From positions 744,001 to 808,000 of the forward strand of contig NZ_CP090446.1 in the NCBI RefSeq assembly GCF_021442025.1: 64,000 bases of DNA, written 5' to 3'. The translations under genes and the position numbers were made by a program. A model generated the notes under the pieces. The model had not been told where the DNA came from and searched no databases. It saw only the letters and a list, made by a program, of their open reading frames with translations. Source of the DNA: Sphingobacterium sp. SRCM116780. Lineage in GTDB: Bacteria; Bacteroidota; Bacteroidia; Sphingobacteriales; Sphingobacteriaceae. This document shows, piece by piece, positions 17,910-47,632 of this stretch; the first letter of the stretch is position 1; the number at the start of each line of letters is the position of its first letter.

Positions 17910-18483
17910 CGTTGTTGCTCCAACATTTAGCAATAATATTCCAGTCTTGGAGACCTTGATTCAAAAAGGGATTTATTGACCCTTCGGAACAATAAACCAG
18001 TGAAGGTTCGCTCTTTCAGCGGTCACTTAAATCCAATAAAATTGAAGACTCTGTCTGGAAATAGAGCAGAACCACAATACTATCCTGCATTTTATAATAG
18101 TTGTAGTTGCTTTTTATAACATTTATACCCCTCTCTGGTTTAAGTGTTCGCTTTTTCAGCGGTCACTTAAATCCATATATAAAATCGAAGACTCTGTCTG
18201 GAAATAGAGCAGAACCACAATACTATCCTGCATTTTATAACGGTTGTAGTTGCTCCTATAACATTTATACCCCTCTCTGGTTTAAGTGTTCGCTTTTTCA
18301 GCGGTCACTTAAATCCATATATAAAATCGAAGACTCTGTCTGGAAATAGAGCAGAACCACAATACTATCCTGCATTTTATAACGGTTGTAGTTGCTCCTA
18401 TAACATTTATGCAATACTATTCAGGTCTGGAGACCTTGGTTTTCAAAAAAGATTTAAGTGACCCTTCGGAACACTTAAACCAG
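17910..18483. repeat. R1 repeat array: right half-copy plus about 141-bp tandem units
   Basis: Begins with the right half of a long-type R1 element ending ATAAACCAG at 18000, followed by three left-arm units: GGTCACTTAAATCC starts at 18021, 18161 and 18303, a period of 140-142 bp. The array closes with an R1 right end (GGTCTGGAGACC near 18425, ending CTTAAACCAG at 18483). Units two and three are nearly identical. No coding potential: frames through it are made of the repeat itself. Confidence 0.85.
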
Positions 18484-18616
18484 TGAAGGTTCATGATGAT
18501 AAAATAGTTGAGAATAATTAAGTGTCAATATGAGTTAGAACTGAGTGAAAGTTCAATAAATCGAAACTTAATCAAAGCAGTATCGCTTTAGGCTAAGTTA
18601 ATAAAAAAAACCTTAT

Positions 18617-18819
18617 CTGGTTTAAGTGTTCGCTCTTTCAGCGGTCACTTAAATCCAATAAAATCGAAGACTCTGTCTGGAAATAGAGCAGAACCACAAT
18701 ACTATCCTGCATTTTATAATGGTTGTAGTTGCTTTTTATAACATTTATACAATAATATTCTGGTCTGGAGACCTTGGTTTTCAAAAAAGGTTTATTGATC
18801 CTTTGGAACAATAAACCAG
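18617..18819. repeat. R1 repeat, long type (203 bp)
   Basis: Runs from CTGGTTTAAGTGTTCGC to GGAACAATAAACCAG. It contains the long-type middle with GACTCTGTCTGGAAATAGAGC, then GGTCTGGAGACCTTGG and TTTTCAAAAAAGG before the right hairpin. It is separated from the array at 17910 by 133 bp without visible features. Confidence 0.85.
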
Positions 18820-19171
18820 AGAACAGTATTGTTGATGCTCGTTGGAGGTGTAAAACCTAAAACCGTAATTATGGTAAAAAAATCAGTAATGTGGGTCTTT
18901 TTTATTACATAATATTTTTAATCTTCGTAATGGATAATAGTAGCCTGTTATATCCATTTTTTGACGCTATATGAGGATTTGTTATCACCATCTGAATTTT
19001 TATCGTACGATAAGAATAAATAATAAAACTAATAGGTAGTTTTATGTGTTTTTATGATAAGTGTTTTGTGTACACATACTTTATTGGTAGATGATCTTCC
19101 ATAAAATATTAAAAATATAGGGTGTAGATTAAGACATCTAACCATTTGACAACAATGAAAATGATTCAATT
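18820..19171. other. Leader region of the molybdenum hydroxylase operon
   Basis: About 350 AT-rich bases with no gene. The perfect palindrome TTATCGTACGATAA lies at 19000-19013, about 160 bp before the first gene, and may be an operator. No convincing TAnnTTTG promoter or Moco-riboswitch-like structure was found by eye. Confidence 0.4.
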
Positions 19172-19765
19172 ATGAGAAAGAATGATAAATTGAGTAGGCG
19201 ATTTTTTTTAAAGGCTAGTGGAGCATTAACCCTATTGGCAGCAATTCCAACTGCTTTAAAAGCCACTTATATACACGTCAAGAATTTCATTATCCCAGAA
19301 AAAAAAGTGGTACCGTTAACGGTCTCCATAAATAAAAAAGCTTATACATTAAATTCGGATACACGTACGACATTATTGGATTTATTGCGGGAAAACTTAT
19401 CATTGACGGGTACAAAAAAAGGATGCGACCATGGACAGTGTGGCGCATGTACTGTTCACGTTGATGGAGAACGGGTATTAAGTTGCCTCACGCTTTCCGC
19501 TATGGTTGTTGGAAAGGAAGTGACTACCATTGAAGGAATAGCCCAAGGTGATCAACTGCACCCTATGCAAGAAGCATTTATATCCTGTGATGGTTTTCAG
19601 TGTGGATATTGTACGCCTGGTCAAATCATGTCGGCTATAGCATGTGTTAAGGAAGGACATACGCATTCTGTTGAAGAAATAAAAGCGTACATGAGTGGGA
19701 ATCTTTGCCGTTGTGGAGCCTATAATGGAATTGTTGAATCTATTCAAAAAGTAGCGGCATTATGA
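19172..19765 (+). CDS. paoA: PaoA-like (YagT) aldehyde oxidoreductase 2Fe-2S subunit, Tat-exported
   Basis: Electron-transfer subunit of a trimeric molybdenum hydroxylase. The 197 residues start with a twin-arginine signal (SRRFFLKASGALTLLAAIP). The plant-type ferredoxin cluster is in KKGCDHGQCGACTVHVDGERVLSC and the second 2Fe-2S in FQCGYCTPGQ...NLCRCGAY. The Tat signal on the small subunit is a hallmark of E. coli PaoABC, in which the folded trimer is exported to the periplasm. The ATGA overlap with the next gene implies translational coupling. The substrate (probably aldehydes) is inferred from family. Confidence 0.88.
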   Translation: MRKNDKLSRRFFLKASGALTLLAAIPTALKATYIHVKNFIIPEKKVVPLTVSINKKAYTLNSDTRTTLLDLLRENLSLTGTKKGCDHGQCGACTVHVDGERVLSCLTLSAMVVGKEVTTIEGIAQGDQLHPMQEAFISCDGFQCGYCTPGQIMSAIACVKEGHTHSVEEIKAYMSGNLCRCGAYNGIVESIQKVAAL

Positions 19766-20739
19766 GACCATTCGATTTAAAAAAAGTAGACAGTCCAAAA
19801 ACTGCACTCACACATAAAAAGGATCAAGTTCAATTTATCGCTGGGGGAACCAATCTGGTTGACCTGATGAAGAAGAATATTAGCCAACCCGATACTTTAC
19901 TTGATATAGCAACAGCGTTATCGTCTACCATAGAAAAGCAGGGTGCGCACTTTCATATTGGTGCCATGACACGTAATACGACCATTGCTACAGATTGGAT
20001 TATTTTAGAACATTTTCCATTACTTGCAAAAGCTGTCTTAGCAGGTGCATCCCCTCAGATCCGTAATATGGCCTCTACCGCGGGCAATCTATTGCAACGT
20101 ACGCGTTGTCCTTATTTTTATGATAGCACAACCGCCTGTAATAAGCGTAAGCCCGGTTCGGGTTGTAGCGCATATGATGGACAGAATAGAATGAGTGCTG
20201 TTATTGGATATAGCAAGGACTGTGTTGCAGTACATCCTTCTGATCTTTGCATTGCTTTAGTTGCCTTGGATGCCAAAGTACATGTTACGCATAAAGATCA
20301 AAAAAAATCAGTCATTGCTTTTCAAGATTTTCATCGCTTACCAGGCAATGAACCGCATCGCGATAATACCCTACCCGAACATGCATTAATTACATCCGTT
20401 GAATTGACAGCTAATGCTATTTTTAAGCATTGTGCTTATGTTAAAGTTCGAGATCGGGATTCTTATGCTTTCGCTTTGGTATCTGTCGCTGCAGCTTTGC
20501 AATTGGATGGTGATCAAATTGTAGAGGCGCGATTAGCTTCAGGAGGAGTAGCCCATAAACCTTGGCGATGGTTGAAAGCAGAGCAGTTTTTGAAAGGTAA
20601 AAAAGCGACCGCATCAATTTTTAGTGAAGCTGCTGAGCTTATTGTTAGCGATCTAAAACCATTGTCACATAACGGTTTTAAAATACCCATGTTAAAGGGT
20701 GCTGTTGAGACCGCATTGTCACAATGCCTAACTGTTTAA
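19762..20739 (+). CDS. paoB: PaoB-like (YagS) FAD-binding subunit with 4Fe-4S cluster
   Basis: FAD subunit of the trimeric aldehyde oxidoreductase. The 325 residues have the FAD-binding fold (FIAGGTNLVDLMKKN near 26-40) and the CO_dehydrogenase flavoprotein C-terminal domain (about 215-322). The Cys residues 116, 126, 135 and 154 (RTRCPYF, ACNKRK, GSGCSA, KDCVAV) match the extra 4Fe-4S cluster that distinguishes PaoB from xanthine dehydrogenase FAD subunits. No signal is present, as expected when export depends on the PaoA Tat signal. Length agrees with E. coli YagS (318). Confidence 0.88.
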   Translation: MRPFDLKKVDSPKTALTHKKDQVQFIAGGTNLVDLMKKNISQPDTLLDIATALSSTIEKQGAHFHIGAMTRNTTIATDWIILEHFPLLAKAVLAGASPQIRNMASTAGNLLQRTRCPYFYDSTTACNKRKPGSGCSAYDGQNRMSAVIGYSKDCVAVHPSDLCIALVALDAKVHVTHKDQKKSVIAFQDFHRLPGNEPHRDNTLPEHALITSVELTANAIFKHCAYVKVRDRDSYAFALVSVAAALQLDGDQIVEARLASGGVAHKPWRWLKAEQFLKGKKATASIFSEAAELIVSDLKPLSHNGFKIPMLKGAVETALSQCLTV

Positions 20740-20809
20740 AGTAGTGTAAATAAATTTACTCGTTCAGCTCTTGAAAAAGGAGGAGCGAGTTTCCGTAAAA
20801 ATTAAAAGG

Positions 20810-23017
20810 ATGAGCATCTTCGATCAACAAAATTATACTATACCTGAAGGACGTGTGGAAGCTGTCGATAAAGTTACTGGGAGAGGGAAATATGCAGCCG
20901 AATATGAGGTGGAAAATATGTGTTATGCGGTTTTGGTCGGTAGCACCATTCCTAGTGGCACTATAACAGCTATTGATTTGACAAAAGCACAACAGGTAAA
21001 AGGGGTCGTAGACTTTGTAACCCACCTTCACAAACCTGATGTGCCAGGATTTGCTACAGAGTCTTTAATAAAAGAATCGCGCTTTGGTCTTCCCATTTTC
21101 CACACAAACAAAATATATTTCAAAGGTCAGCCCATTGTACTGGTAATTGCCGAAACGTTAGAAGAGGCTACTTTTGCCGCATCGCTTGTGGAAGTGCAAT
21201 ACCAGTCTGAAAGCTTTCAAGTGGATTTTGATGCTGTACATCCTACCATACCTCTTCAAGAGGCAGGTAAGGAACGAGGTCTAATCGATGCATGGAAGGA
21301 TGCACAGCATGTTGTAGAAGAAGAATATACCATTAAAGCTGAGGTGCACAATCCGATGGAAATGCATGCTACGCTTGCACATTGGATCGGTGAAGATCGC
21401 TTAAAGCTATACGATAAAACGCAGGGAGTCAACAATGTACAGCAGGTAATTGCACCTTTATTTAAGCTTAAAAAAGAAAATGTAGAGGTGGTAAGTGAGT
21501 TTGTTGGAGGTGGGTTTGGTTCAGGCTTACGTGTCTGGCCACATGTGCTGGCAAGTATAATGGCTGCAAAACAAGTAAAAAGACCCGTTAAATTGATGCT
21601 AACCAGACCTCAAATGTTTATCGGTACGGGTTACCGACCTGCTTCTTGGCAAAAGATCAAGATAGGGGCAGATAACTCGGGTAAATTTCTAGGGATATTC
21701 CATCAGGCTAAAAACGAAACTTCCCTTTATGAACGTTTTTCGGATCAAATTACGCGGATTGCTCGATTGATCTACAACTTTGATAACCTGAAAACGGAGG
21801 ATGCTTTGGTGCCTTTGAACCTGAATGCCGCAACATGGATGCGTGGACCAGGTGATTGCACGGGTGATTTTGCCATTGAATGTGCCATTGATGAGTTAAG
21901 TTATCAATTAAAAATGGATCCTCTGGCAATACGATTAAAAAATATAGCTTCCAGTCATCATCCGGACAACAAACTACCGTGGTCTTCCAACCATTTAAAA
22001 GAATGTATGGAAATCGGTGCAACCCGTATACAATGGAATGATCGAAATTCTGCTCCTAATGCTACGAAAGAGGGTGATTGGCGAATTGGATATGGCATGG
22101 CTGTTGGGATGTGGAATGCAGGACGCAATAAAACCAGTGCAGCCATTGTCATGAAAAAAGATGGAACCATTACGATTCAAACGGCAATGACTGATATTGG
22201 CACAGGTACCGGAACAGGAATGAAAAATGTCGCACATGAAGCTACTGGTATACCCAAGGATCTGATTAAGATTGAATTGGGGAATTCCAATTTACCTCCA
22301 GCGCCTAGTCAAGGAGGAAGTACAGGGATGTCATCTGTCAGTGGAGCTGTTGTGGAAGCTTCCAACGCTTTAAAACTTAAGCTAGCGGAATATGCTGCTT
22401 TGACGAATCCAAAATTTAAAAACCTATCTCCAGATGATATTCTGTTATCAGAAAAAGGAATTTCATTGAAAAAAATAACTGGTGAAACGGTTTCTTATGC
22501 TGACCTATGGGCTAAAAATAAATTGGATACCATCGTTGTGGATGCTACTTCAGGTCCTGGAGAAGAAAGGAAGAAATATGCATTTTGTTCTTCTGCGGCT
22601 CATTTTTGCCAAGTTCGGGTAAATATTAAAACGGGTAAAGTTAAGATTGAAAAGATGGTTTGCGTGGCTGATGGTGGAAAGATAGTAAACGAAAAAGCGG
22701 CAGCAAATCAGATGTCAGGAGCAGCTATTGGAGGCATTGGAATGGCATTGATGGAAGAAAAGCTATTGGATCCAAAAAGTGGTGGTTTGATTGGGGATGA
22801 TTTGGCAGGTTATCACTTTCCTGTGAATGCCGATGCTCCCATCATTGATGTGAGTTTTATAGGAAAGGCCGATCCATATATTAATCCAACGGGAGCAAAG
22901 GGATTGGGTGAAGTGGGAATTATCGGGACAGCTGCTGCGATTGCAAATGCGATTTATCATGCAACAGGTAAAAGGATTCGAAATTTACCGATTACTCCAG
23001 ATAAAATATTGGTTTAA
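20810..23017 (+). CDS. paoC: PaoC-like (YagR) molybdopterin-binding catalytic subunit
   Basis: Large catalytic subunit holding molybdenum cofactor, hydroxylating aldehydes to acids. From the ATG at 20810 it has 735 residues, close to E. coli PaoC (732); an in-frame TTG at 20771 would add 13 residues unlike the family. Domain a/b hammerhead (about 10-115) precedes two Moco-binding domains; EFVGGGFGSG lies near the hammerhead end, and the invariant Glu is in KGLGEVG (about residue 701 of this start). It lacks a signal, matching export with PaoA. It is followed by XdhC after 70 bp. Confidence 0.88.
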   Translation: MSIFDQQNYTIPEGRVEAVDKVTGRGKYAAEYEVENMCYAVLVGSTIPSGTITAIDLTKAQQVKGVVDFVTHLHKPDVPGFATESLIKESRFGLPIFHTNKIYFKGQPIVLVIAETLEEATFAASLVEVQYQSESFQVDFDAVHPTIPLQEAGKERGLIDAWKDAQHVVEEEYTIKAEVHNPMEMHATLAHWIGEDRLKLYDKTQGVNNVQQVIAPLFKLKKENVEVVSEFVGGGFGSGLRVWPHVLASIMAAKQVKRPVKLMLTRPQMFIGTGYRPASWQKIKIGADNSGKFLGIFHQAKNETSLYERFSDQITRIARLIYNFDNLKTEDALVPLNLNAATWMRGPGDCTGDFAIECAIDELSYQLKMDPLAIRLKNIASSHHPDNKLPWSSNHLKECMEIGATRIQWNDRNSAPNATKEGDWRIGYGMAVGMWNAGRNKTSAAIVMKKDGTITIQTAMTDIGTGTGTGMKNVAHEATGIPKDLIKIELGNSNLPPAPSQGGSTGMSSVSGAVVEASNALKLKLAEYAALTNPKFKNLSPDDILLSEKGISLKKITGETVSYADLWAKNKLDTIVVDATSGPGEERKKYAFCSSAAHFCQVRVNIKTGKVKIEKMVCVADGGKIVNEKAAANQMSGAAIGGIGMALMEEKLLDPKSGGLIGDDLAGYHFPVNADAPIIDVSFIGKADPYINPTGAKGLGEVGIIGTAAAIANAIYHATGKRIRNLPITPDKILV

Positions 23018-23087
23018 AAATGATAGTTCAACAATATGTTTATCAGTATGATATATCATGTGTTGTTGGACAAAAAGACGTTAAAAG

Positions 23088-24218
23088 ATGAATGAATTAT
23101 GTGCCATAATTGAAGCTTATCAGGAAGCAGAACAAGCAAATATCAAAGCTGTTCTGGCTACTGTCGTGAAGGTTGAAGGATCTTCCTACCGCATGCCTGG
23201 GGCTCGGATGCTGGTCACAGAATTCGGGGAAATGACCGGTGCTATCAGTGGAGGGTGCCTCGAAGGAGACGCATTACGAAGAGCTATGCTGGCATTAACA
23301 CAACAAACGAATAAATTGGTTACCTATGATACCTCCAATGATGCTGATGTAACGATCGGCGTTCAATTGGGCTGTAATGGAATCGTTCATATCTTATTTG
23401 AGTATATCGATCACGCAAAACCAAATAACCCGATTACTTTACTGGAAAAGTTACTGGATAAACGTACTGCTTCTGTTGTGGTTACGGTATGCTCGTTGGA
23501 TAGAAATGCCGACCAACCTGGGACATGTTGCGTACAATTGGAAAATGAAACGTTATTCAGTGATACGACAATCCTATCCCTTACAGATTTATCGGCTTCC
23601 ATCGAGCAGGTGTTCGCAAGCCAGCAAACCTTACGAACGGTATTCGCACACGGGCAATCTACTTATGAAGTTTTATTTGAATATGTGATACCTGTCACGC
23701 GATTGATTCTGATTGGCGCTGGCAATGATGTACAACCTTTGGTTGAAATGGCAAACATCATGGGTTGGGAAAGTTGGATTGTGGATGGACGTTCAACACA
23801 TGCCACGAAAAAGCGATTTCCAACGGCAAAATCTATCACTGTAACTTCTTCGGATGAATTTCAGCAGCAGATAACCATAGATCCCTACAGTGTATGTGTT
23901 TTGATGTCACATAATTATAACTATGACAAAGCAATCTTACAGCAACTTATAACGACTGATTGTCCTTATATTGGTTTATTGGGCCCTAAAAAGCGCTTTA
24001 TGCGTATGGTTGAAGAGTTGCAAGCCGAAGGAATTACGTTGGATTCAGCGCAACAGGCTAAATTATTTGGTCCTGTAGGTTTGGATATTGGAGCGGAGAC
24101 ATCAGCAGAAATTGCGCTCGCTATATTAGCTGAAATTAAAGCGGTACTTCATCATAAATCAGCCTGCTCACTTCGAGACCGAACGGGAAAAATGCACCAA
24201 GATATTTCTATTATATAA
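23088..24218 (+). CDS. XdhC/PaoD-family Moco insertion chaperone
   Basis: Cytosolic protein that binds matured Moco, helps its sulfuration and inserts it into the hydroxylase. The 376 residues have an N-terminal XdhC_CoxI domain (about 10-105, SSYRMPGARMLV and GAISGGCLEGD) and a C-terminal Rossmann-like domain (about 200-345, LILIGAGNDVQPLVEMA). It follows the catalytic subunit and precedes moaA by 6 bp, matching PaoD position in E. coli. PaoD acts on the cytidylated cofactor, which fits the MocA domain two genes downstream. Confidence 0.87.
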   Translation: MNELCAIIEAYQEAEQANIKAVLATVVKVEGSSYRMPGARMLVTEFGEMTGAISGGCLEGDALRRAMLALTQQTNKLVTYDTSNDADVTIGVQLGCNGIVHILFEYIDHAKPNNPITLLEKLLDKRTASVVVTVCSLDRNADQPGTCCVQLENETLFSDTTILSLTDLSASIEQVFASQQTLRTVFAHGQSTYEVLFEYVIPVTRLILIGAGNDVQPLVEMANIMGWESWIVDGRSTHATKKRFPTAKSITVTSSDEFQQQITIDPYSVCVLMSHNYNYDKAILQQLITTDCPYIGLLGPKKRFMRMVEELQAEGITLDSAQQAKLFGPVGLDIGAETSAEIALAILAEIKAVLHHKSACSLRDRTGKMHQDISII

Positions 24219-24224
24219 CGTATT

Positions 24225-25205
24225 ATGCTCTTCGATAAATTTGGTAGACAACATACCTATCTGCGGATATCCCTTACCGACAATTGTAACCTACGGTGCT
24301 TCTACTGTATGCCCGAAGAGGAGTATGCCTTTGCTGCACCCTCCAAACTGATGCAACCGCAGGAAATCTTGGAAATCGCACAAACTTTTGTGGATCAGGG
24401 GATCACAAAAATACGGCTTACAGGTGGCGAGCCTTTTGTTCGAAAGGATGTAGACATTATTTTGGCGGGTTTGTCTAAACTTCCGGTTGAACTTACTTGT
24501 ACCACAAATGGTATTCGTATTGATGCTTTATTACCTATGATCAAAGCAGCAAATTTTAGTAGTATGAATATTAGCTTGGATACCTTAAATGCTCAAAAAT
24601 TTCATCGCATAACACGCAGAGATCTTTTTGATAAAGTGCGTAGCAATATTGATCTGTTGTTGAAAGAGGGGATTCGTTGTAAGTTGAATGTCGTGGTGAT
24701 GAAAGGGCTAAACGACGATGAAATTTTAGATTTTGTAAGGCTCACCAAAGAATTGCCTTTGATCGTCCGTTTTATCGAATTTATGCCTTTCAGTGGTAAT
24801 AAGTGGACAAGTAATCAGGTATTTACACTGGATGAGATCAAGAAGGTTATCGCAAGTGCTTTTGAGATTCAGGCTGTGGTAGGAGATGTGCACGACACAG
24901 CTAAACACTTCCAAATCGCAGGTCATCAGGGATCTTTCTCCGTGATCAGTACCATGAGCGAACCCTTTTGTGGAGGATGTAACCGTATTCGACTAACAGC
25001 TGATGGAAAATTAAAAAATTGTTTATTTTCTACACATGAGACGGATTTATTAGGCGCACTTCGTCAAGGAGAACCGATTTTACCACTTATACAGACGAAC
25101 ATTCAATCTAAAGCATATGCCTTAGGTGGACAACTGGAAAAAGATTTTACGCAAATAGATGTAGATAAACTGGAAAATAGAAGCATGATTACTATAGGAG
25201 GCTAA
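24225..25205 (+). CDS. moaA: GTP 3',8-cyclase (radical SAM)
   Basis: First Moco step: GTP to (8S)-3',8-cyclo-7,8-dihydro-GTP, cytosolic. The 326 residues carry the radical-SAM cluster CNLRCFYC (Cys21, 25, 28) near the N-terminus, the LTGGEPFVR motif, and a second cluster at CGGC..C (about 249, 252, 266) with NRIRLTADGKLKNCLF. It ends in the family GG tail (MITIGG), which enters the active site. Length is normal (about 330). Its TAA overlaps the ATG of the next gene by one base. Confidence 0.95.
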   Translation: MLFDKFGRQHTYLRISLTDNCNLRCFYCMPEEEYAFAAPSKLMQPQEILEIAQTFVDQGITKIRLTGGEPFVRKDVDIILAGLSKLPVELTCTTNGIRIDALLPMIKAANFSSMNISLDTLNAQKFHRITRRDLFDKVRSNIDLLLKEGIRCKLNVVVMKGLNDDEILDFVRLTKELPLIVRFIEFMPFSGNKWTSNQVFTLDEIKKVIASAFEIQAVVGDVHDTAKHFQIAGHQGSFSVISTMSEPFCGGCNRIRLTADGKLKNCLFSTHETDLLGALRQGEPILPLIQTNIQSKAYALGGQLEKDFTQIDVDKLENRSMITIGG

Positions 25206-26968: not shown

Positions 26969-26974
26969 AGATCA

Positions 26975-27709: not shown

Positions 27710-27785
27710 GCTACATGATAAAAAAACTCAGAAGGAATTTAGTAATTTTATGATGGTATAACGGGTTATATAAAAAAATAGGAAG

Positions 27786-28013: not shown

Positions 28014-28014
28014 T

Positions 28015-29139: not shown

Positions 29140-29143
29140 AACC

Positions 29144-35788: not shown

Positions 35789-36801
<1,013 letters not shown>

Positions 36802-36919
36802 TTAAATGATATTTCTATATATTGATTTATCACTATATGGAAATATCATTCTTTTTATATATTCGAAGTCGAATGAATTGTAACTAAAATTATCGTGTTC
36901 AGTTTATGGATAAAAATTC

Positions 36920-37819: not shown

Positions 37820-38054
37820 GATACAAAGTTAGCAATATTCCTACTACGCTTACTTTTATTAGTATAAATTAATTTATATCAAAATATAAATTATACTATT
37901 TTATTTATGCATAAATGCTCCTCACATTTGCAATGTAAAAACAAAGAAATCATACCAATTTGTTGCTGTTTTAAACCTGTGGTATTGGTCAGGAATGGTT
38001 GTTCTTTGCGTATGGGCGGGGGATGTGGTATAAACAATTTTATAAAATAAGACG

Positions 38055-39362: not shown

Positions 39363-39484
39363 GAGGGTAAAGTAAGTAAAAATGTCTAATCTGTAATATT
39401 GGTAGAAGAAACAGTAATATATATCCCAATACACGCAATTTCAATGTGCATATTTGTGATATCATGAATTTAACCATTGAAAAA

Positions 39485-39937
39485 ATGAAAAAAACACTTT
39501 TTGGATTATTATTAATCATGCTGAGTGTGCAGTTATCTTTTGCACAAGACTCTACTGCTGTACAAGAAATTAAGGAGCTTTCTAAATTAAAATGGCAATG
39601 GATGGCCGATAAAAATGTGGATAAGCTGGCTTCACTTTTCGATGATAAGTCAAAATTTGTTCACATGAGTGGCACATGGAAAAAGGCTGAAGAACTCGAC
39701 ATCATCAAAACTGGAAGCATTTGGTATAAGAAAGCAGATGTTCATGATGTTGCTGTAGAAATTTCTGACGATGTAGCCATTGTTTGGAACCGTATTACGC
39801 TGACTGCTGTCGTTCGCGGTAATGATGCGGTAACTGAATTTACCGTTACCGAAGTTTATAAAAAGCACGGAAACGACTGGAAATTGTTAGCACTGACATT
39901 TAGCAGTGTACGAGACACCCATAAGATCGCACATTAG
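39485..39937 (+). CDS. Exported NTF2-like (DUF4440/SnoaL-like) protein
   Basis: A 150-residue cone-fold protein from the preferred ATG at 39485, which gives a normal signal peptide (MKKTLFGLLLIMLSVQLSFAQ); an in-frame ATG at 39446 adds 13 residues with no counterpart. The NTF2-like domain covers about 28-145, with WQWMADKNVDKLASLFDDKSKFVH and a final TEVYKKHGNDWKLLALTFS. Function is unknown; relatives include isomerases and ligand-binding proteins. A related C-terminal fragment lies at 35650. Confidence 0.82.
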   Translation: MKKTLFGLLLIMLSVQLSFAQDSTAVQEIKELSKLKWQWMADKNVDKLASLFDDKSKFVHMSGTWKKAEELDIIKTGSIWYKKADVHDVAVEISDDVAIVWNRITLTAVVRGNDAVTEFTVTEVYKKHGNDWKLLALTFSSVRDTHKIAH

Positions 39938-40006
39938 TTGAATTAATTTTTTAAGATTTGGAGGGAAGTAATGTGAACTTGTTGAGCAAGAATTTCAAAT
40001 CTATAC

Positions 40007-40043
40007 AAAAAAGTCGTTGACGTTAAGGTCAGCGACTTTTTTT
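40007..40043 (+). terminator. Terminator after the NTF2-like gene
   Basis: AAAAAAGTCGTTGACG TTAAGG TCAGCGACTTTTTT: imperfect but strong hairpin followed by a T-run. Confidence 0.75.
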
Positions 40044-40129
40044 ATTGGCATATGGAGAGCGCAATTATTCCAGAATGTAACAAAGAACAGAATTGATACA
40101 TATTGTGCACTTCTTCAATTATCCCAATA

Positions 40130-40258
40130 CAGTTTAAAGGTTCGCTTTTCAGCTGGCAATAAATCCAAAATGTAATAGACATGTCGTGCTGTACTTCGGT
40201 CCGGAGATCTTGATTTTCAAAAGAGGGATTGAAGTGACCCTTCGAAACAATAAACCAG
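40130..40258. repeat. R1 repeat, short type
   Basis: About 129 bp: GTTTAAAGGTTCGC at the left, GGCAATAAATCC inner left arm, GGTCCGGAGATC centre, right hairpin AGTGACCCTTCGAAACAATAAACCAG. It is one of the more diverged copies. The flanking 39938-40447 gap holds nothing else except the terminator at 40007. Confidence 0.8.
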
Positions 40259-40447
40259 AGGGGTCTTTAACTATAAATCATTCACTACGTTTATTCCTTT
40301 TTGTTGTTACACTTTTTTAAAGAGGACAAACAAATCGTCTTAAAAACCTTGACTATTTTTAAGGGAGAAAAGATTGCCTATTTGTGAAGGCTTCATGAGG
40401 AAATTCAAGCTAAAATTTTTCGCTATCTTGTTTTAAAATTCTACAAG

Positions 40448-40843
40448 ATGAAAGCGAAAAAAATATGGGCTAATTTTAGTGTAAAAGATGTCAAGCGTAC
40501 TAATCAATTCTACACACAATTGGGTTTTACGCCCAATAAGCCAAATAACCATCCTAAGCTAGCTAGTTTTCTTTTCGGTAATGATGATTTTGTGATTCAT
40601 TTTTTTGAACAGGGCTCACAGATAGATGAGTATCTACCCCTAGCATCAAAAGGCTGTGAAATTATATTTACACTTTCTGCTGAGACAAAGGAAGAAGTGA
40701 AAGAATGGATGGATAAAGTTAAAGAGGCTGGAGGTACCATTTTTAACGAAGCGGGCAGAGATAAAACCAATTACTATGGTTTTGCCTTCGCTGATCCCGA
40801 TGGTCATAAATTTAATATACTCCTGATGGAAGAGGGGATGTGA
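40448..40843 (+). CDS. VOC-superfamily (glyoxalase/bleomycin-resistance-like) protein
   Basis: A 131-residue cytosolic protein with the paired beta-alpha-beta-beta-beta fold: VKDVKRTNQFYTQLGFTPN (about 12-30) opens module 1 and NYYGFAFADPDGHKFNILLM ends module 2 with the usual DPDGH. Candidate metal ligands are present but no specific reaction can be named. Stand-alone gene between two R1 copies. Confidence 0.85.
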   Translation: MKAKKIWANFSVKDVKRTNQFYTQLGFTPNKPNNHPKLASFLFGNDDFVIHFFEQGSQIDEYLPLASKGCEIIFTLSAETKEEVKEWMDKVKEAGGTIFNEAGRDKTNYYGFAFADPDGHKFNILLMEEGM

Positions 40844-40890
40844 TGAAGTTTTGGATGTTAATCTCCATCACGCATTGTGTCAAATCAGTG

Positions 40891-41496
40891 TTAAAGCAGG
40901 TGATTTTCTTTTAATGAATTTTCCAATTCTAATGATTCACTTTTTGATAATTTTAGCACATTAGAAAGATTCTTGAAAGAGATTTTTCCTATTGTATGAT
41001 AATATATCAGAATATCTTGAATTTTTCCCATATCATATTTATTATATAATTGAAAATATGTAGTAGTTTCAGTCCCATTATTAAGTATTATAATTAATTG
41101 ATTGTCAACGCCATTTGAAAAATCGGAAGCGTAAGTGTTCCCAACAACTGATTTTCCAAAGTAATCTCCATTATAAATTGATATTGTTTTTATCATGGAT
41201 AAATCAATTTTCTTATCGTCTATCACAATAAAATCATTTTGAAACTCAAGAAAACCATTTAATATGCCATTTAATTTTTCAGGTTTTCCGATCATATAAA
41301 ATTTTCGTATAACAGCAAAAGCGAGTATTCCAAACATAAAATATGCAATTGGCTTATTCATTTTATTGTCAACATCTATATTTAAATATGAACATAAGTA
41401 TAGAATAGAAGCCAAGAAAAAAAAGATGATGGGTATTAATAAATCGATATTTATCCTAATTTTATTTGACTTAATAAAAATGCTAAATCTTTCCAT
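40891..41496 (-). CDS. Hypothetical two-helix membrane protein
   Basis: Not recognised. The 201 residues have two hydrophobic helices (about 18-38 and 48-66) followed by a soluble domain with beta-strand character (FIVIDDKKIDLSMIKTISIYNGDYFGKS) resembling PH-like domains of small membrane proteins. Very A+T-rich codons (many ATT, AAA, TTA) set it apart from the core genes and suggest acquisition. It is convergent with the VOC gene 47 bp away. Confidence 0.6.
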   Translation of the reverse strand: MERFSIFIKSNKIRINIDLLIPIIFFFLASILYLCSYLNIDVDNKMNKPIAYFMFGILAFAVIRKFYMIGKPEKLNGILNGFLEFQNDFIVIDDKKIDLSMIKTISIYNGDYFGKSVVGNTYASDFSNGVDNQLIIILNNGTETTTYFQLYNKYDMGKIQDILIYYHTIGKISFKNLSNVLKLSKSESLELENSLKENHLL

Positions 41497-41672
41497 AATT
41501 TATTATGAGAGAAGTAATTTTATGTACTCTAATAATGTGAAGTTTAGTGAAATTGGTGAAAAAGAAAATACTAATTTTTAACTTTACAACACAATAGTAT
41601 AAACCCGGTTACTAATTTAATAAAAAATAGAATTTAAATAATTAATGGATAAAAAGAATTATTGACTTTAGT

Positions 41673-41801
41673 CTGGTTTAAGTGTTCGCTCTTTCAGAAG
41701 TCAATAAATTCAGGACGTAATATACATGTAGTGGTATATTTTGGTCTGGAGACCCTAGTTTTCAAAAAAGGTTTAAGAGATCCTTCGGAACATTTAAACC
41801 G
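41673..41801. repeat. R1 repeat, short type
   Basis: 129 bp from CTGGTTTAAGTGTTCGC to ACATTTAAACC. The centre GGTCTGGAGACC is exact. The right hairpin uses GGTTTAA/TTAAACC rather than TTTATTG/CAATAAA. It lies in the 441-bp gap before the AraC gene, which holds no other feature. Confidence 0.8.
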
Positions 41802-41937
41802 AGGGGGTTACTCTTAATGGAGGAAGGGATGTGATAACCATTTTTTGTGTATCGATAATTAAGCACAAGAAATCTCCATATTTTCTAAATCCAGTTTGCT
41901 TATCTTTATATGAAATTAGGCTATTATTTTATTTGGA

Positions 41938-42858
41938 ATGGAGACAGAATTTTTCGATATTAAAACAACGATTTCTCGGTTTATAGATGACAAAAACATA
42001 GTCAACCATACGTTAATAGCAGACATTCAAAACAGTTGTTCTTATCTAGACGAGTTTGCCATTGTCACTTTCAACGCTCCCTTGGCAAACCTAATTCCAT
42101 TTAAACCAAAACATTATTTTTTGATTATAGGTATCACTGGTACTTGCCATGTAACAGCAGGATATCATACTTTTGAAATTCTTCCAGACACCATTTCTTT
42201 ATTAGCAGCAAATCAACTTTGCTGTTTCACAGATAGCTCTGATGACTTTCGAGCAGATGTCATATTATTTAAAAAAGATTTTCTTACGGAGAGTTATGTG
42301 AAAGACCCTGTCATTGAGGAGTTAGTCTATATTAATCCCGATTATCCGCCTACTTACCTGTTAACAGAAGAACAAAATCGGGTGAAGATACGTCATAAGT
42401 TTGAGGATATTCAAGATGAATTTAAACAGCAGGGTCCATTTTACTTAAATATAATCCGTTTAAAAATCATCGAATTATTATATGATTATAATAGAGCTTG
42501 TGAATATTGCCTTCTTTTATTTAAAAAACAGATGAATAGACAATATCAGCTAACTTATTCATTTAAGAGGTTGGTTGATGAGAAATTTCTGTCCATAAAA
42601 ACAGTTGCAGAATATGCCAGTCTGTTAAATATTAGTCCTAAATATCTGAGTGATACCATTAAGTCAGAAACAGGTACGGCTGCATTGGATATTGTGCACA
42701 AACGTTTATTGATGGAGGCTCAATATCTTTTAAAATACTCAAAAAAAAGTATCAAAGAAATAGCAGGAATTCTTGGTTTCGATTCAACTTCTCACTTTTG
42801 TCGTTTTTTTAAAAGAAAGGTGGGTACAACGCCTTTAAAATATAAAGGCAATAGGTAA
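41938..42858 (+). CDS. AraC-family transcriptional regulator
   Basis: A 306-residue regulator with an N-terminal AraC-like sensor (cupin-type, about 40-190) and two C-terminal helix-turn-helix units (about 205-300; IKTVAEYASLLNISPKYLSDTIKSETG, and KEIAGILGFDSTSHFCRFFKRKVGTTP). It precedes the MFS gene by 79 bp on the same strand, so it probably controls this exporter. Inducer unknown. Confidence 0.9.
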   Translation: METEFFDIKTTISRFIDDKNIVNHTLIADIQNSCSYLDEFAIVTFNAPLANLIPFKPKHYFLIIGITGTCHVTAGYHTFEILPDTISLLAANQLCCFTDSSDDFRADVILFKKDFLTESYVKDPVIEELVYINPDYPPTYLLTEEQNRVKIRHKFEDIQDEFKQQGPFYLNIIRLKIIELLYDYNRACEYCLLLFKKQMNRQYQLTYSFKRLVDEKFLSIKTVAEYASLLNISPKYLSDTIKSETGTAALDIVHKRLLMEAQYLLKYSKKSIKEIAGILGFDSTSHFCRFFKRKVGTTPLKYKGNR

Positions 42859-42937
42859 AATTGGTCGTATTTACCCCTATACTTGACGTATTTCCCTTTT
42901 TATAACGATTAATTTTGAGCCATATCAAATTAAAATT

Positions 42938-44344
42938 ATGGCTACTATCGCAGAAAAAGAAAAGGGAAGTTGGAATGAATTGCTTTCTGGTAAGAATGGT
43001 TTAAGGGCTATTGCACTGGCTGCAGGAGTGATACTCCATGCAACAGATGTTTATCTGGCGACCACCATTATGCCATCCGTGATCGAAGAAATCGGAGGAC
43101 TTTCGTTTTATTCATGGGCAACTACGATCTATGTTGTTGCCGCAATCATCGGTTCAGTAATTTCATCCAGTAACCTGATCAAGCAGGGGCCTAAGAAAGC
43201 ATATACCCTGGCTGCATTGATTTTCGCTATCGGTGCAGTAATCTGTACCCTTGCACCTGCCATGTATATCTTACTGATCGGACGGTTTATCCAGGGAATA
43301 GGAGGAGGATTATTGTTTGCATTATCCTATGCGATGATCGGTATTTTATTCCAAGAAAAGCTTTGGCCAAGAGCGATGGCACTTGTTTCGGCGATGTGGG
43401 GTGTTTCCACTTTTTTCGGACCATTAATTGGAGGATCCTTCGCTCAATATAGTCATTGGCGTATGGCTTTCTTGACGCTTGCCGTATGTGCTCTTTTGTT
43501 AATTATACTCATTCAAGTCGTACTTCCTAAAAGCATAAAAGAAACGAAAGCACTACCGGTTATTCCTTGGAGTAAATTGATCTTAATTACTGCAGCGACA
43601 TTGGCTGTTTCAATGGGTGCTGCTAGTACGCATGTCATTATTAAGCTATCAGGAATTTTAATAGCTGTTGTATTGTTCGTCATCATGGTCATTACAGATA
43701 AAAAAAGTACGAATAGTTTATTACCACGTGGTAGCTATAACATGACTTCATCTTTGGGTGCAACTTATATGATTATGGCTTTGCTTACGATCAGTACTGC
43801 AGTAGAAATTTATATTCCTTATTTTATGCGGGAGATCCATAAATTTGGACCTCTGAAGGCGGGTTATTTAACCGTTCTCATTGGTTTAGGCTGGTCGCTA
43901 TCTTCGGTTTTCTTTTCAGGCGCTAAACAAAATAAAGTCATCCGTTTAATATCCATAGGAATCATGATTGTTTTTGTCGGACTGTGTGGCTTGTCTTTTA
44001 TCATACCTTCATTTCATAGCACAAATGGGATAGGATTCGTAGCGATGTGTATTTTTCTTCTATCTATTGGTGTTGGCGTTGGAATGGGGTGGCCTCATTT
44101 GTTAACGAAAGTATTATCTTCTGCGCCAAAAGGGGAAGAAGAAAAAGCATCTGCCTCCATTACGACCGTTCAACTCTTTTCAACAGCGTTTGGAACAGCT
44201 CTTTGTGGTTTAGTGGCTAATGCTACAGGTATTTTAACTCCCGGTGGTGTATCCGGTAGTCAACAAGCTGCGCTGTGGCTATTTGGGTTATTCTCGATAG
44301 CTCCTCTCATGGCGATTATCATCTTTAGGAAGATAAATAAGTAA
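42938..44344 (+). CDS. MFS transporter, DHA2-like drug/metabolite exporter
   Basis: Inner-membrane permease of 468 residues with about 12-14 hydrophobic segments. The first loop motif is GPKKAYTLAALIFAIGA-like, and FIQGIGGGLLFALSYAMIG and GVSTFFGPLIGGSFAQYSHWRMAF (motif C region) mark the 14-helix drug-exporter group. Follows the AraC gene, so export of a toxic compound is plausible. Followed by a terminator. Confidence 0.88.
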   Translation: MATIAEKEKGSWNELLSGKNGLRAIALAAGVILHATDVYLATTIMPSVIEEIGGLSFYSWATTIYVVAAIIGSVISSSNLIKQGPKKAYTLAALIFAIGAVICTLAPAMYILLIGRFIQGIGGGLLFALSYAMIGILFQEKLWPRAMALVSAMWGVSTFFGPLIGGSFAQYSHWRMAFLTLAVCALLLIILIQVVLPKSIKETKALPVIPWSKLILITAATLAVSMGAASTHVIIKLSGILIAVVLFVIMVITDKKSTNSLLPRGSYNMTSSLGATYMIMALLTISTAVEIYIPYFMREIHKFGPLKAGYLTVLIGLGWSLSSVFFSGAKQNKVIRLISIGIMIVFVGLCGLSFIIPSFHSTNGIGFVAMCIFLLSIGVGVGMGWPHLLTKVLSSAPKGEEEKASASITTVQLFSTAFGTALCGLVANATGILTPGGVSGSQQAALWLFGLFSIAPLMAIIIFRKINK

Positions 44345-44420
44345 CGTGTTGTTCTTTCGTTAAGGAATAATATAATAATTTCCTTTTGATCAAACGTCGT
44401 TTGCAAAAGTCTATAAACAA

Positions 44421-44446
44421 CAAAGCCCGATGTTATTCGGGCTTTA
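44421..44446. terminator. Terminator between MFS and GNAT genes
   Basis: AAAGCCCGA TGTTAT TCGGGCTTT hairpin between the convergent genes; flanking A and T tracts. Confidence 0.85.
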
Positions 44447-44449
44447 TTA

Positions 44450-44890
44450 TTACTCTGCTAATTTCATTCTTAACAGTGGATAGTTCCTACCTTGGTCATC
44501 CTTGTCAGTTCTCTCAAATGTTTGAAATCCAAACTTTTGATAGAATTTTATAGCTTTTGTATTTTGTTCATTGACATCAAGTGTGTTCGCCTTTAATTCT
44601 TTTACTGCAAAATTTAATAATTTCAATCCGAGTCCATGTCCAAAATAATTTGGATCTAAAAAAAGCATCTCAATTTTTTGGTTCATAACTCCAATAAAAC
44701 CCAGTACCAATTTTTCGTTTGTTAAGCAAAATACTTGAAAGTCATTAAAATCTATACTCTTTACAAGTTCTTTAATTTCTTCAAAGTCGGATGGAGTCAA
44801 AAAGTTGTGTGTGGCAAGAACCGAGTTTTCCCAAACGGTCAAAATCTGCTCTCTATAATTATCATGGTATTCATTTATTGTCGTATTCAT
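44450..44890 (-). CDS. GNAT-family N-acetyltransferase
   Basis: A 146-residue acetyl-CoA-dependent transferase. The acyl-CoA loop is in DPNYFGHGLGLKLLNFAVKEL (about 85-105) and the last part is EQNTKAIKFYQKFGFQTFERTDKDDQGRNYPLLRM, typical of GNAT. Substrate unknown. Codon use is A+T-rich. Lone minus-strand gene after the MFS terminator. Confidence 0.87.
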   Translation of the reverse strand: MNTTINEYHDNYREQILTVWENSVLATHNFLTPSDFEEIKELVKSIDFNDFQVFCLTNEKLVLGFIGVMNQKIEMLFLDPNYFGHGLGLKLLNFAVKELKANTLDVNEQNTKAIKFYQKFGFQTFERTDKDDQGRNYPLLRMKLAE

Positions 44891-45105
44891 CTTTGTCTTC
44901 TTAAAATTATATCAATGTGTATTGAACTTATTGTGTTGTCATAGTTTGACCACTCACATTGCAAGCTTGGTAACCGTGGAGAAGTAAGCTGAAACTTTGA
45001 AAGTTGTATCAACTTTAGCATAGGCTAATTCATGCTTCTAAATTAGGAAAAAAGAAAACATAAGTGGCTTATGCAACAAAAGAATTACTATTGATTTTTC
45101 TTATA

Positions 45106-45858
45106 TTATTTAGTATTCGATAACCCTCCATCAACTAAAATCTCAACTCCATGTATGTATGAAGCATCTTCAGATGCAAGAAATACAACTGTTTTAGCAA
45201 TTTCAGAAGCTTCACCAAAACGTTTAAATGGAAGGGTGGGGGTAATGCTTGCTATTGCCCCTTCGATTTGATCAGGTGAAAGACCTGTATTATTAAAAAT
45301 ATTGGTTTTGATATAACCTGGGCTTATTCCGTTTACACGGATTTGTTTTGCTGTACACTCAACAGAAAATGTCTTTATGAATGATCGAACGGCAGCTTTT
45401 GCTGCAGAATAAATTGAAAAATTTTCTATTCCAAATGCTGTTACGAAAGAGGTGTTTAAAATAATAGAACTTCCTACATTCATTATTGGTAACATTTGTT
45501 GAACGGTAAAGAATGTTCCTTTGACCAACATATTAAATAGTTCATCAAAGTGAACTTCGTCAACCATTTCAATGGGTGCAAACTTACCATAACCGGCATT
45601 TATAAATAAAACATCCAATTTATTTGCGTGCTTTTGAACTTGCTTTTGTAAATCGAAAATATCAGATAATTTTCCTGCATTTGATACAAGACCAATGGCA
45701 TTTGAACCTAAACTGTTTATCGCCTTATCTACTGTTTCTTTGCTACGTCCAGTAATGATTACAGTTGCCCCTTCGTAAATAAATTCTTGAGCTGTGGCAA
45801 AACCCATTCCGCTTGTTCCACCAGTGATTAAGACCACTTTGTTTTTAAATTTTTGCAT
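45106..45858 (-). CDS. Short-chain dehydrogenase/reductase
   Basis: A 250-residue classical SDR with NAD(P)-binding TGGTSGMG (about 12-19), the NAGYG motif (about 88-92), Ser in the NTSFVTA strand and catalytic YSAAK (about 148-152). The carboxy end (YIHGVEILVDGGLSN) is also normal. The arginine after the first strand (GRSKETV) favours NADPH. Substrate unknown. The following 587-bp gap contains an R1 copy. Confidence 0.92.
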   Translation of the reverse strand: MQKFKNKVVLITGGTSGMGFATAQEFIYEGATVIITGRSKETVDKAINSLGSNAIGLVSNAGKLSDIFDLQKQVQKHANKLDVLFINAGYGKFAPIEMVDEVHFDELFNMLVKGTFFTVQQMLPIMNVGSSIILNTSFVTAFGIENFSIYSAAKAAVRSFIKTFSVECTAKQIRVNGISPGYIKTNIFNNTGLSPDQIEGAIASITPTLPFKRFGEASEIAKTVVFLASEDASYIHGVEILVDGGLSNTK

Positions 45859-46072
45859 TTCTATTTAATTTAAATTTCTATACAAAGATTCATATAGTTA
45901 AGTCGCCATAAAATCCGAAACTTGCTGAATACATTCAAAATGTGCTTTAATTCCTTCAACAATGTTGCAATGGAATAATTTGAAGGGCAGAAAGCATCTT
46001 CAAAATAGCACTGACTATTCGCTCTTCAAAGAACTTGTATGTGAGGACTACGCCTAACCAAAATACCACTGG

Positions 46073-46199
46073 CTGGTTTAAGTGTTTGCTCCTTCAGCGG
46101 TCAATAAATCCAATAGAATATATCTGTAGTGTTCTATTTCGGTCTGGAAACCGTAGTTTTCAAAAAAGGATTTATTGACCCTTCGGAACAATAAACCAG
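46073..46199. repeat. R1 repeat, short type
   Basis: 127 bp from CTGGTTTAAGTGTTTGC to GGAACAATAAACCAG; inner left arm GGTCAATAAATCC, centre GGTCTGGAAACC, then TTTTCAAAAAAGG and right hairpin GGATTTATTG...CAATAAACC. The rest of 45859-46445 contains no gene I can support. Confidence 0.85.
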
Positions 46200-46445
46200 G
46201 GTGGGAAAAAATATACTGGAGAAATGATGAACAAATGAGCTTATCTATTCGTTAGACATAGGAACAATTTTACTAAACGAACCTCTATGGATGTTGTTCC
46301 GGAAAACAAAGTATTTACTTCCCTTTGTGATATAAACTAGGGAAACTGAATCCCTTTATCGTACCTACTTTCAAGAATGAACATTAGAATTTACAATGGA
46401 TACATAAACGTCAGATACAATACTTCAGGATTAAATAAATAGCTA

Positions 46446-46838
46446 ATGAATACGACTATTTACTACGAAAGTAAGACAAATAATGTTCGGCGGTTTATCG
46501 ACAAGATAAGAGCCAAACGACCCCATTGGCAATTTAGCAATATTGTAGATGTTCAACATTCTATCCATGAATATGGACATTTGGTAACCTATACAGCATC
46601 AATGGGTGAATGTCCAAAACTATCACTTCATTTTGCATCACTTAACAGTAAATATTTATTGTCCGTTTCGGTCTCCGGCAATAGAAATTTCGGTCATGAT
46701 TTTGCCTTATCAGCAGACATCATAACACAAGAGTTTGCTATACCGACATTATTGAAATTTGAACTGTCTGGCTTTAAAGAAGATGTTTCACACTTTATTG
46801 CTGGTATAGAAAAATTAGAAAATACCTTCAAAAAATAA
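46446..46838 (+). CDS. NrdI-like flavoprotein (orphan)
   Basis: NrdI is a small flavodoxin-like partner of class Ib ribonucleotide reductase, supplying oxidant to assemble the Mn2-tyrosyl radical of NrdF. The 130 residues match the family at the start (IYYESKTNNVRRFIDKI: FMN phosphate loop), in the middle (VSGNRNFGHDFALSADII) and at the end (PTLLKFELSGFKEDV). The region that is usually a glycine-rich loop reads TASMGECPKLS. No nrdE or nrdF lies near. Assignment is by motif recall. Confidence 0.75.
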   Translation: MNTTIYYESKTNNVRRFIDKIRAKRPHWQFSNIVDVQHSIHEYGHLVTYTASMGECPKLSLHFASLNSKYLLSVSVSGNRNFGHDFALSADIITQEFAIPTLLKFELSGFKEDVSHFIAGIEKLENTFKK

Positions 46839-46858
46839 ACGAGCTATGGACACACAGT

Positions 46859-46987
46859 TTGGTTCAAGTGTTCACTCTTTCAGCGGTCAATAAATCCAAA
46901 ATGTAATATAGATTTAGCGATGTATTTCGGTCTAGAGACTGGAGTTTTTAAAAGAGGATTTATTGACCCTTTGGAACAATAAACCAG
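46859..46987. repeat. R1 repeat, short type
   Basis: 129 bp starting TTGGTTCAAGTGTTCAC and ending GGAACAATAAACCAG; centre GGTCTAGAGACT; right hairpin GGATTTATTGACCCTTTGG. Diverged mainly at the left end. It fills most of the gap between nrdI-like and VOC genes. Confidence 0.85.
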
Positions 46988-47085
46988 AGGGGAGGTGACC
47001 GTAAATTCAATCTTTACGAACAAATGGTTGACTTCGCCTAAAGACATTGTTCTCGGCGCCATATAAGGGATCGCTTCTTCTTCAG

Positions 47086-47526
47086 TTAAACTCGCTCGTT
47101 ATCATTTGGGTCAAATTCCACAATCCATTCAATACCATATTTGTCTCTAAACATTCCAGCATATGTACCCCAAGGACTGTCGTCAATAGGTCCTTCAATA
47201 TTTCCACCTGCTGACAGTCCGTTAAAAAGTCTGTCTGCTTCTTCACGACTTTCTGCACTGATTGATATTTTAGACCTGTTTTCGTTTTCGTTTACCCGTC
47301 CCATAAATTCAGGAACATCATTAGCGATTAACACATTGTGTTTTCCTATAGGCAAAACAATGGTCATTATTTTATTTGCATCTTTTTCTGCTACCTGAAA
47401 TTCAGGGCTTGAAAGGTCTTTGAAACGAATAATCTTTGTGAACTCTCCGCCAAAAACTGATTTGTAAAAAGTGAATGCTTCTTCAGCATTTCCATTGAAG
47501 TTGATCCAGGGATTGATTGTTCTCAT
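47086..47526 (-). CDS. VOC-superfamily protein, PhnB-like
   Basis: A 146-residue glyoxalase-fold protein of the PhnB/YdgB type (MRTINPWINFNGNAEEAFTFYKSVFGG at the start, IDDSPWGTYAGMFRDKYGIEWIVEF at the end). Such proteins lack a clear known reaction; family names referring to methyltransferases are misleading. Lies between two R1 copies. Confidence 0.88.
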   Translation of the reverse strand: MRTINPWINFNGNAEEAFTFYKSVFGGEFTKIIRFKDLSSPEFQVAEKDANKIMTIVLPIGKHNVLIANDVPEFMGRVNENENRSKISISAESREEADRLFNGLSAGGNIEGPIDDSPWGTYAGMFRDKYGIEWIVEFDPNDNERV

Positions 47527-47573
47527 AACTTTATTTTTTAATTTTTCTGTTTACGCTATTCTGTATTTCCAGT

Positions 47574-47632
47574 CTGGTTTAAGTGTTCGTTCTTTCAGCA
47601 GTCAATAAATCCAAGACGTAAATATACATTTA
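47574..47632. repeat. R1 half-copy (left arm only)
   Basis: CTGGTTTAAGTGTTCGTTCTTTCAGCAGTCAATAAATCC and the start of the centre, matching other copies until 47632. It stops one base before the TAG (plus-strand 47633-47635) of the secreted-protein gene; the right half is missing. Confidence 0.8.

Follow-up and report, generated by a model that had tools for sequence, protein, structure and literature searches.

Double-hairpin repeats of a Sphingobacterium chromosome are probably miniature derivatives of a RAYT transposase unit

We analysed a stretch of 64,000 nucleotides, here called the window, of Sphingobacterium sp. SRCM116780 (contig NZ_CP090446.1, positions 744,001-808,000 of a chromosome of 4,282,846 bp, that is, 4.28 Mb). 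The subject is R1, a family of palindromic repeats, together with the gene of a REP-associated tyrosine transposase (RAYT; REP, repetitive extragenic palindrome) on the same chromosome. An earlier reading of the window from its letters (below, the sequence-only reading) had listed seven R1 loci. All seven were found, and R1 is a real dispersed family. R1 features within the window are given in window positions and lie on the + strand.

The complete long copy at 18617..18819 was used as the reference. Along the + strand, a full copy consists of hairpins H1 (CTGGTTTAAGTG...CACTTAAATCC) and H2 (CTCT...AGAG), which form the left module, a variable middle, and hairpins H3 (GGTCTGGAGACC) and H4 (GGATTTAAGTG...CACTTAAACCAG), which form the right module. 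The outer hairpins, H1 on the left and H4 on the right, are bulged and 34-40 nt long; the inner hairpins H2 and H3 are small. In the reference copy, H1 (18619..18656) has a single-base bulge, and the region 18617-18656 folds well as single-stranded DNA (-9.3 kcal/mol, z-score -7.1). H2 was delimited by eye at 18671..18688. It is followed by a remnant of RAYT codons about 13-20 (18709..18731, corresponding to positions 136-158 of the RAYT unit, 87% identity). H3 (18762..18773) is weak alone as DNA (z -0.8). H4 (18789..18817) is the inverted counterpart of H1, and the region 18784-18819 again folds well as single-stranded DNA (-9.1 kcal/mol, z -4.5). The covariance model of the right module also matches left modules on the opposite strand (in the reference copy 18618-18686, minus strand, 26.4 bits), and thus the two ends, each about 70-80 nt, are inverted repeats.

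The region 17910-18483 had been read as one locus. The repeats are there, but they form an array rather than a single copy. Its left edge is a solitary right module, H3 with H4 (17937..18004, found by a hidden Markov model; covariance model match 17936-18000, 60.2 bits). Then follow a truncated left module with a RAYT 5' remnant (18006..18128), a chimera in which the first ~11 nt are replaced by the junction with the preceding right module; a left module with its spacer, which together make up one repeat of a tandem array with a 142-bp period (18135..18276); and a complete long copy (18277..18483), which matches the RAYT coding sequence over 34 nt in its 5' part and 15 nt in its 3' part and whose right module closes the array. 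At 18006-18410 the program TRF reports a period of 142 bp and 2.9 copies.

Short copies are located at 40130..40258, where the left end is degenerate, at 41673..41801, at 46073..46199, where the left hairpin has mixed arms and folds poorly (z -1.0), and at 46859..46987, 21 bp past an NrdI-like gene. The element at 47574..47632 is a half copy, as had been proposed, and consists of the left half only. The hairpin centre GGTCTGGAGACC given for the family is exact in three copies of the window and present with one mismatch in another (0.04 occurrences expected by chance), and is variable elsewhere; the ends and the A-tract quoted with it likewise vary among the copies.

Just beyond the outer hairpins, the best units are tipped by CCCC...GGGG. 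Outside the left hairpin C makes up 49-75% of positions -6 to -3 (97 left flanks), and outside the right hairpin G makes up 54-69% of positions +2 to +6 (52 right flanks); strict CCYY occurs in 45 of the 97 and strict RRGG in 27 of the 52. By eye, the foot of the outer hairpins has a C-run and CT on the left and A-rich DNA and GG on the right, and no GT[AG]G tetranucleotide, the mark of canonical REPs, was seen at the 5' foot of the hairpins. No preference for palindromic targets was detected, as there is no surplus inverted match beyond the C/G tips (observed 3.28 versus shuffled 3.50 of 12). For elements between single small genes, integron attC sites were considered and rejected: judged by eye, the ends lack the attC core pattern. 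This end anatomy, inverted double hairpins with C-run and G-run tips, is new here; among titles and abstract beginnings no prior account of R1 was found in the literature, although palindromes of this type may be included in Table S1 of PMC6006769.

R1 is not limited to the window, as the best copy has 72 BLAST places across the chromosome. Profile scans of the window and 24 fetched stretches gave 68 left and 42 right matches, of which 51 left and 42 right were kept after removal of 17 left matches overlapping a right module on the opposite strand. With E<=1e-4 as the threshold, the covariance model, built on 28 right modules, finds 46 right modules genome-wide, whereas 92 congeners yield none (stricter Infernal filters, 56 candidates scored per genome; our genome still yields 46). 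Seven matches of a DNA search in congeners, at E about 5e-4 to 1e-3, fall inside the R1 middle and were taken as chance.

The sequence-only reading had suggested looking for a REP-associated tyrosine transposase elsewhere, and one such gene exists on the same chromosome. Y1_Tnp, the family of Y1/HUH transposases, has a single match in the chromosome. The RAYT gene is an intact open reading frame (ORF) of 183 aa at chromosome positions 1,367,774-1,368,325, 560 kb from the window. It lies within the densest R1 array (cluster 1,367,188-1,369,688) in the order H1-H2, gene, H3. The protein scores 97.4 bits with NCBIfam REP_Tyr_transpos (cut-off 80) and 26.5 bits with transpos_IS200, under the cut-off of 55.

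Its motifs are NHIH, WQ and YLHENP. Residues N59 H60 H62, W124 Q125 and Y145 H147 N149 P150 are invariant in 12 aligned RAYTs (NHxH, WQ, YxHxNP), the spacing of H62 and Y145 is 83, and S165 S166, the SS tail motif, are invariant in 40 sequences. RAYT subclass 2.6 is described as belonging to Bacteroidetes, with motifs NH[LIV]H, WQ and YIH[QN]NP, a length of about 179 aa, a median HuH-Y distance of 82, an SS motif in the tail, and flanks with 'atypical secondary structures' that lack GT[AG]G and have copies elsewhere in the genome (PMC6006769, description of the subclass). The third motif is a loose fit, with L for I and E for Q/N. The flanks are likewise structured and free of GT[AG]G, and right modules recur 46 times in the genome. 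The AlphaFold model of the L056 relative from Pedobacter, 83% identical to our protein, has pLDDT 93, and its best match in the Protein Data Bank (PDB) is 4ER8, a RAYT with a REP hairpin (E 8.2e-9, TM 0.67/0.74), so that a HUH Y1 fold is predicted for this relative; a PDB sequence search with the protein itself gave nothing at E<=0.01. The motifs, the missing GTAG heads and this predicted fold place the RAYT in subclass 2.6.

We compared 34 two-ended R1 copies by BLAST with the RAYT unit of this chromosome and the complete L056 unit; a 35th, at 484,000, was excluded, its module order being reversed. In the 34 copies the ends of the unit are kept and the middle is missing, with differing end points. 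RAYT coding sequence of at least 15 nt is matched in 24 of them (the first half in 17, the second half in 16, both in 9), these counts including short weak matches. At the protein level, N-terminal pieces of the RAYT are recognised at 309, 698, 816 and 4,280 kb, the first three within the 34 copies, and there is one more match, in a decayed state, at 223 kb. As the ends of R1 are the ends of the RAYT unit and coding remnants persist in 24 of 34 copies, R1 elements are internal-deletion derivatives, similar to miniature inverted-repeat transposable elements (MITEs) or bacterial interspersed mosaic elements (BIMEs). We consider it very probable that R1 is a set of miniature elements which arose from a RAYT transposase unit and which the enzyme encoded elsewhere on the chromosome is likely to mobilise in trans. 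The suggestion of REP- or MITE-like elements mobilised in trans thus fits a RAYT that occurs once in the chromosome, within an R1 array, and has left pieces in the copies; the movement in trans itself we infer.

Complete units are seen in relatives. A scan of named genomes with our RAYT found 136 loci, 80 of which were kept, and the closest named RAYTs are those of Pedobacter and other Sphingobacteriaceae. Left and right modules flank the RAYT gene at the Pedobacter loci L056, L057 and L058 and at L060, in a record named Saprospiraceae. The RAYT place of genome G071 matches the Pedobacter montanisoli locus L057; its genus (g14) differs from that of the window (g1) within the same family. In a family survey of 301 genomes including our own (covariance model, 17 candidates scored per genome), a RAYT match at E<=1e-40 is found in 119, and R1-type modules reach E<=1e-4 in 27. 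Apart from our own, 12 genomes have a RAYT match that is near full length and at least 66% identical; 10 of these contain modules, versus 16 of the remaining 288 (Fisher p 2e-10, kinship uncorrected).

The following scheme may be proposed. The starting point would be the full unit known from Pedobacter, CCCC-H1-H2-RAYT gene-H3-H4-GGGG. Long R1 copies would arise when most of the RAYT gene is lost, the 130-bp copies when still more is deleted, and arrays when units are repeated. The enzyme would bind the R1 hairpins as single-stranded DNA, cut near the CC/GG tips and then copy or move the elements, much as enzymes of the TnpAREP type cut the single-stranded DNA of their own REPs in vitro (PMC8266576).

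Several known systems resemble this one in part. With RAYT/TnpAREP subclass 2.6, the same as group 5 of Bertels, it shares the motifs, HuH-Y spacing, length, SS motif and phylum, as well as the unusual flanking structures without GT[AG]G and their copies elsewhere in the genome; however, the main-text descriptions of the subclass give no flank anatomy (PMC6006769), whereas here the ends can be delimited, remnants of the gene persist in deleted copies, and similar full units are found in unrelated surroundings. The REPs, BIMEs and REPINs of gammaproteobacteria are likewise inverted palindrome pairs, intergenic, arranged in arrays and accompanied by a cognate RAYT with the same palindromes at its flanks, and such pairs around and near the RAYT are found in R1 too. 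In contrast to them, R1 lacks a GT[AG]G head, carries a pair of hairpins at each end, has A+T-rich stems and retains scraps of RAYT coding sequence (PMC2817692, PMC8266576, PMC8049555, as far as these describe the elements). The HUH Y1 fold and hairpin ends are shared with IS200/IS605. However, the ends of the R1/RAYT unit are mutually inverted rather than hairpins of the same orientation, the RAYT has Y---NP (Y145-L-H-E-N-P) instead of the catalytic motif Y---Q, and by eye there is no second gene in the Pedobacter units. Like MITEs, the 34 two-ended copies are internally deleted transposase units that keep both ends, but they descend from a RAYT unit and not from a DDE insertion sequence.

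In each of two related genomes, complete units were also observed twice. P. xixiisoli (L058) has complete units at 1382-2103 and 2906-3627, which are 97.0% identical over 723 columns, and both RAYT genes are open. The similarity begins one base before CCCC and ends at GGGG; beyond these points the flanks are unrelated and share no more than short weak matches. In G162, a genome of another genus, two units separated by 2.97 Mb share 91.5% identity over 910 columns, have unrelated flanks, and end at CCTAACTGG/CCAGTTTGG, again with CC/GG tips. The finding that full RAYT units at unrelated sites of one genome can resemble each other so closely is new here and constitutes evidence against the notion that RAYTs do not move; the sequence comparison suggests that this supposedly settled family can still move. 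In print RAYTs are called single-copy and vertically inherited (PMC8049555) and are regarded as domesticated transposases, and no evidence of mobility is stated for class 2 RAYT genes where PMC6006769 describes them. If the proposed reading is true, a RAYT lineage with whole units at unrelated sites and graded deletion derivatives would connect REP systems with ordinary insertion sequences, and R1 would provide a short defined element for the direct assay of REP mobilisation.

One possibility is that recombination or gene conversion among old copies, not transposition, produced the similar units in their unrelated surroundings, the RAYTs being domesticated and R1 having spread otherwise. The published accounts just cited agree with it, and the repeated spacers in the arrays show that these sequences do undergo recombination or slippage. 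However, conversion requires a second copy already in place, and in both P. xixiisoli and G162 the similarity stops at the tips of the unit. We regard this explanation as unlikely, though it deserves to be kept in mind.

Long direct repeats abut both ends of some copies. They measure 275 bp (100% identity) at L056, 39 bp, including low-complexity DNA, at L057, 79 bp at L063, 95 bp at L070, 61 bp (82%) at 3,130,115 of our chromosome, and 157 bp (91.7%) at L190, beside recA. In a uniform test, abutting repeats of at least 30 bp were found at 7 of 70 distinct two-ended copies versus 0 of 324 shifted pseudo-copies (p 4e-6); three of the seven are among 50 isolated copies (p 0.002) and four are in arrays. 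Control pairs of flanks from different loci had a repeat of at least 25 bp in 1 case of 300. L056 was negative in a scan of two-ended copies, its repeat lying beyond an extra right module; L063 and L070 were not recovered as two-ended copies with the profiles used, and the uniform test did not score L195 (58 bp) as positive. Most copies, and both P. xixiisoli units, have no long direct repeats. A looser search around RAYTs (23 of 75 loci versus 3 of 123 shifted controls) was set aside, as many of its repeats were the palindromes themselves.

The direct repeats could result from staggered cutting at insertion, or from tandem duplication primed at the ends. We know of no HUH element that duplicates tens to hundreds of bases of its target. 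Tentatively, and with somewhat more doubt than confidence, we suggest that this RAYT subclass of Bacteroidota is not domesticated, and that live units similar to insertion sequences (CCCC-double hairpin-RAYT-double hairpin-GGGG) transpose whole, shed miniatures and sometimes duplicate adjoining host sequence over tens to hundreds of bases.

A number of observations weigh against derivation from, and mobilisation by, the RAYT. On our chromosome the RAYT copy has no H4 directly after H3, and the next element starts there. R1 copies are often only 70-90% alike. Pairs with 97.8-99.2% identity sit in an array or in larger shared segments, and thus do not support recent movement in this genome. Two attempts to identify an empty site, at 45050-50100 of the window and at an insertion after recA in G194, failed as the intergenic DNA has no alignment in the respective congeners. 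Orientation relative to replication speaks neither way: 18 of 29 loci are co-oriented (p 0.26), and on the clockwise arm alone 12 of 15 (p 0.035), the loci being grouped by hand and the direction derived from dnaA at 3.688 Mb and the GC skew of sampled stretches, which conflict between 3.38 and 3.69 Mb.

Exceptions occur among the relatives as well. In G011 and G143 the only module match is the flank of the RAYT itself, so that dispersed copies are present in 8 of the 12 genomes; G141 and G219 have no module match despite a near-full RAYT; and G245, counted among the 288, has module matches with an 80% RAYT match covering residues 92-182 only. When RAYT pairs were compared in eight genomes, only the one G162 pair described above was clear. 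Pairs in G224 (83.6%) and G098 (78.7%) are more distant, the other two pairs of G162 and the pairs in G288, G234, G287 and G248 do not consist of close copies, and the G103 pair sits at contig ends and is uninformative.

Covariation of the hairpin arms is the last of these points. The sequence-only reading stated that both arms change together. This is true of the pair quoted there, which is a favourable case, but not as a general rule, as mixed stems, an AAGTG arm with a CAAT arm or the reverse, are common. They make up 8 of the 46 left hairpins that could be classified (Fisher p 0.001; a further 5 could not) and, among right hairpins, 15 of 42 (p 0.075). With one copy of each hairpin dropped, paired cells number 458 of 500 in H1 and 359 of 410 in H4, values reached by 0 and 1 of 5000 shuffles of the arms, respectively. 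The excess is weaker if distinct arm pairs only are counted (247 and 362 of 5000 shuffles). In H4 a swap of T-A to G-C is clean in 22 copies with the CACTT-type arm (17 and 5), and G faces A at this position in 7 of 41 copies, those with CAAT-type arms. Among the 28 right modules, none of 500 shuffles attains the observed number of paired cells or covariation score. No such surplus is seen by two stricter measures: pairs with changes in both partners (4 versus 3.4, 230 of 500 shuffles) and further pair types (10 versus 9.2, 194 of 500); the alignment behind these counts misplaces ATTG-type stems. Arm covariation is modest, partial and not secure, and the proposed selection for structure agrees with some measures and not with the stricter ones.

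The same data bear on the idea that R1 elements are functional structured RNAs, or elements of transcription termination or mRNA stability, under selection, with the RAYT as a distant origin only. The arms do covary in part, the outer hairpins are stable, and the long copy folds as RNA better than shuffled sequences (z -3.6). Moreover, 38 of 39 R1 clusters do not overlap by more than 60 bp with an ORF of at least 120 aa. However, the gene context is close to background, with 10 of 36 clusters with both neighbours known being convergent versus 25 of 113 gaps. An Rfam search of the window matches a tRNA only and gives no positive sign of the expressed structured RNAs that the sequence-only reading had named as an alternative, the congeners yielded no model match, mixed-arm and half copies are common, and the gene remnants within copies fit decay better than a conserved RNA. 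This role is improbable in our judgement.

It is hardly credible that the RAYT is in the R1 array by chance and that R1 is moved by another transposase, e.g. a DDE enzyme. In favour of this idea, DDE MITEs typically have long inverted ends, and some genomes (G176, G242) have R1-like modules and no RAYT match at E<=1e-40. Against it, R1-type ends also flank Pedobacter RAYTs, RAYT codons lie inside R1 copies, the presence of R1 tracks that of the RAYT across the family, and no short constant target duplication was seen by eye in the printed flanks.

Some R1 copies have unusual neighbours. At 2.128 and 3.386 Mb (L046 and L051), R1 copies directly precede orphan C-terminal cassettes of RHS genes, followed by small genes, which we take to be possible pairs of toxin tips and immunity proteins; some of the cassettes hold an insert of ~50 bp with a small hairpin. 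The duplicated DNA adjoining R1 at these places is mostly shared RHS-gene sequence and was rejected as an R1 footprint. The chromosome segments 213160-215925 (L034) and 2107235-2110000 (L045) are a duplicate of at least 2.77 kb, 99.8% identical and in opposite orientation, with an R1 copy near the end. At L033, 144 bp around a gene end are repeated at 4044-4187 and 6738-6881, beside R1 copies and flanking three genes: by eye an AraC-like and an NAD(P)-binding-like gene, and a third one. This bracketed segment could be a composite R1 unit.

The window contains other repeats. A second palindromic repeat, unrelated to R1, occurs at 49887-49998 and 53584-53695 (92% alike), one copy adjoining a tRNA-Ser gene. 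It has a 23-nt stem, TTTTATTGTTTATACG... in one copy and TTTTGTTGTTTATACG... in the other, with the other arm changed to match, and similar pieces are present in several congeners. A 60-bp tandem repeat with 2.5 copies (15080-15227) is situated within an ORF on the minus strand (14976-15332) and ORFs on the opposite strand. Finally, a 300-bp direct repeat (48054-48353 and 49024-49323, 92%) lies in two adjacent minus-strand ORFs, which are likely paralogues.

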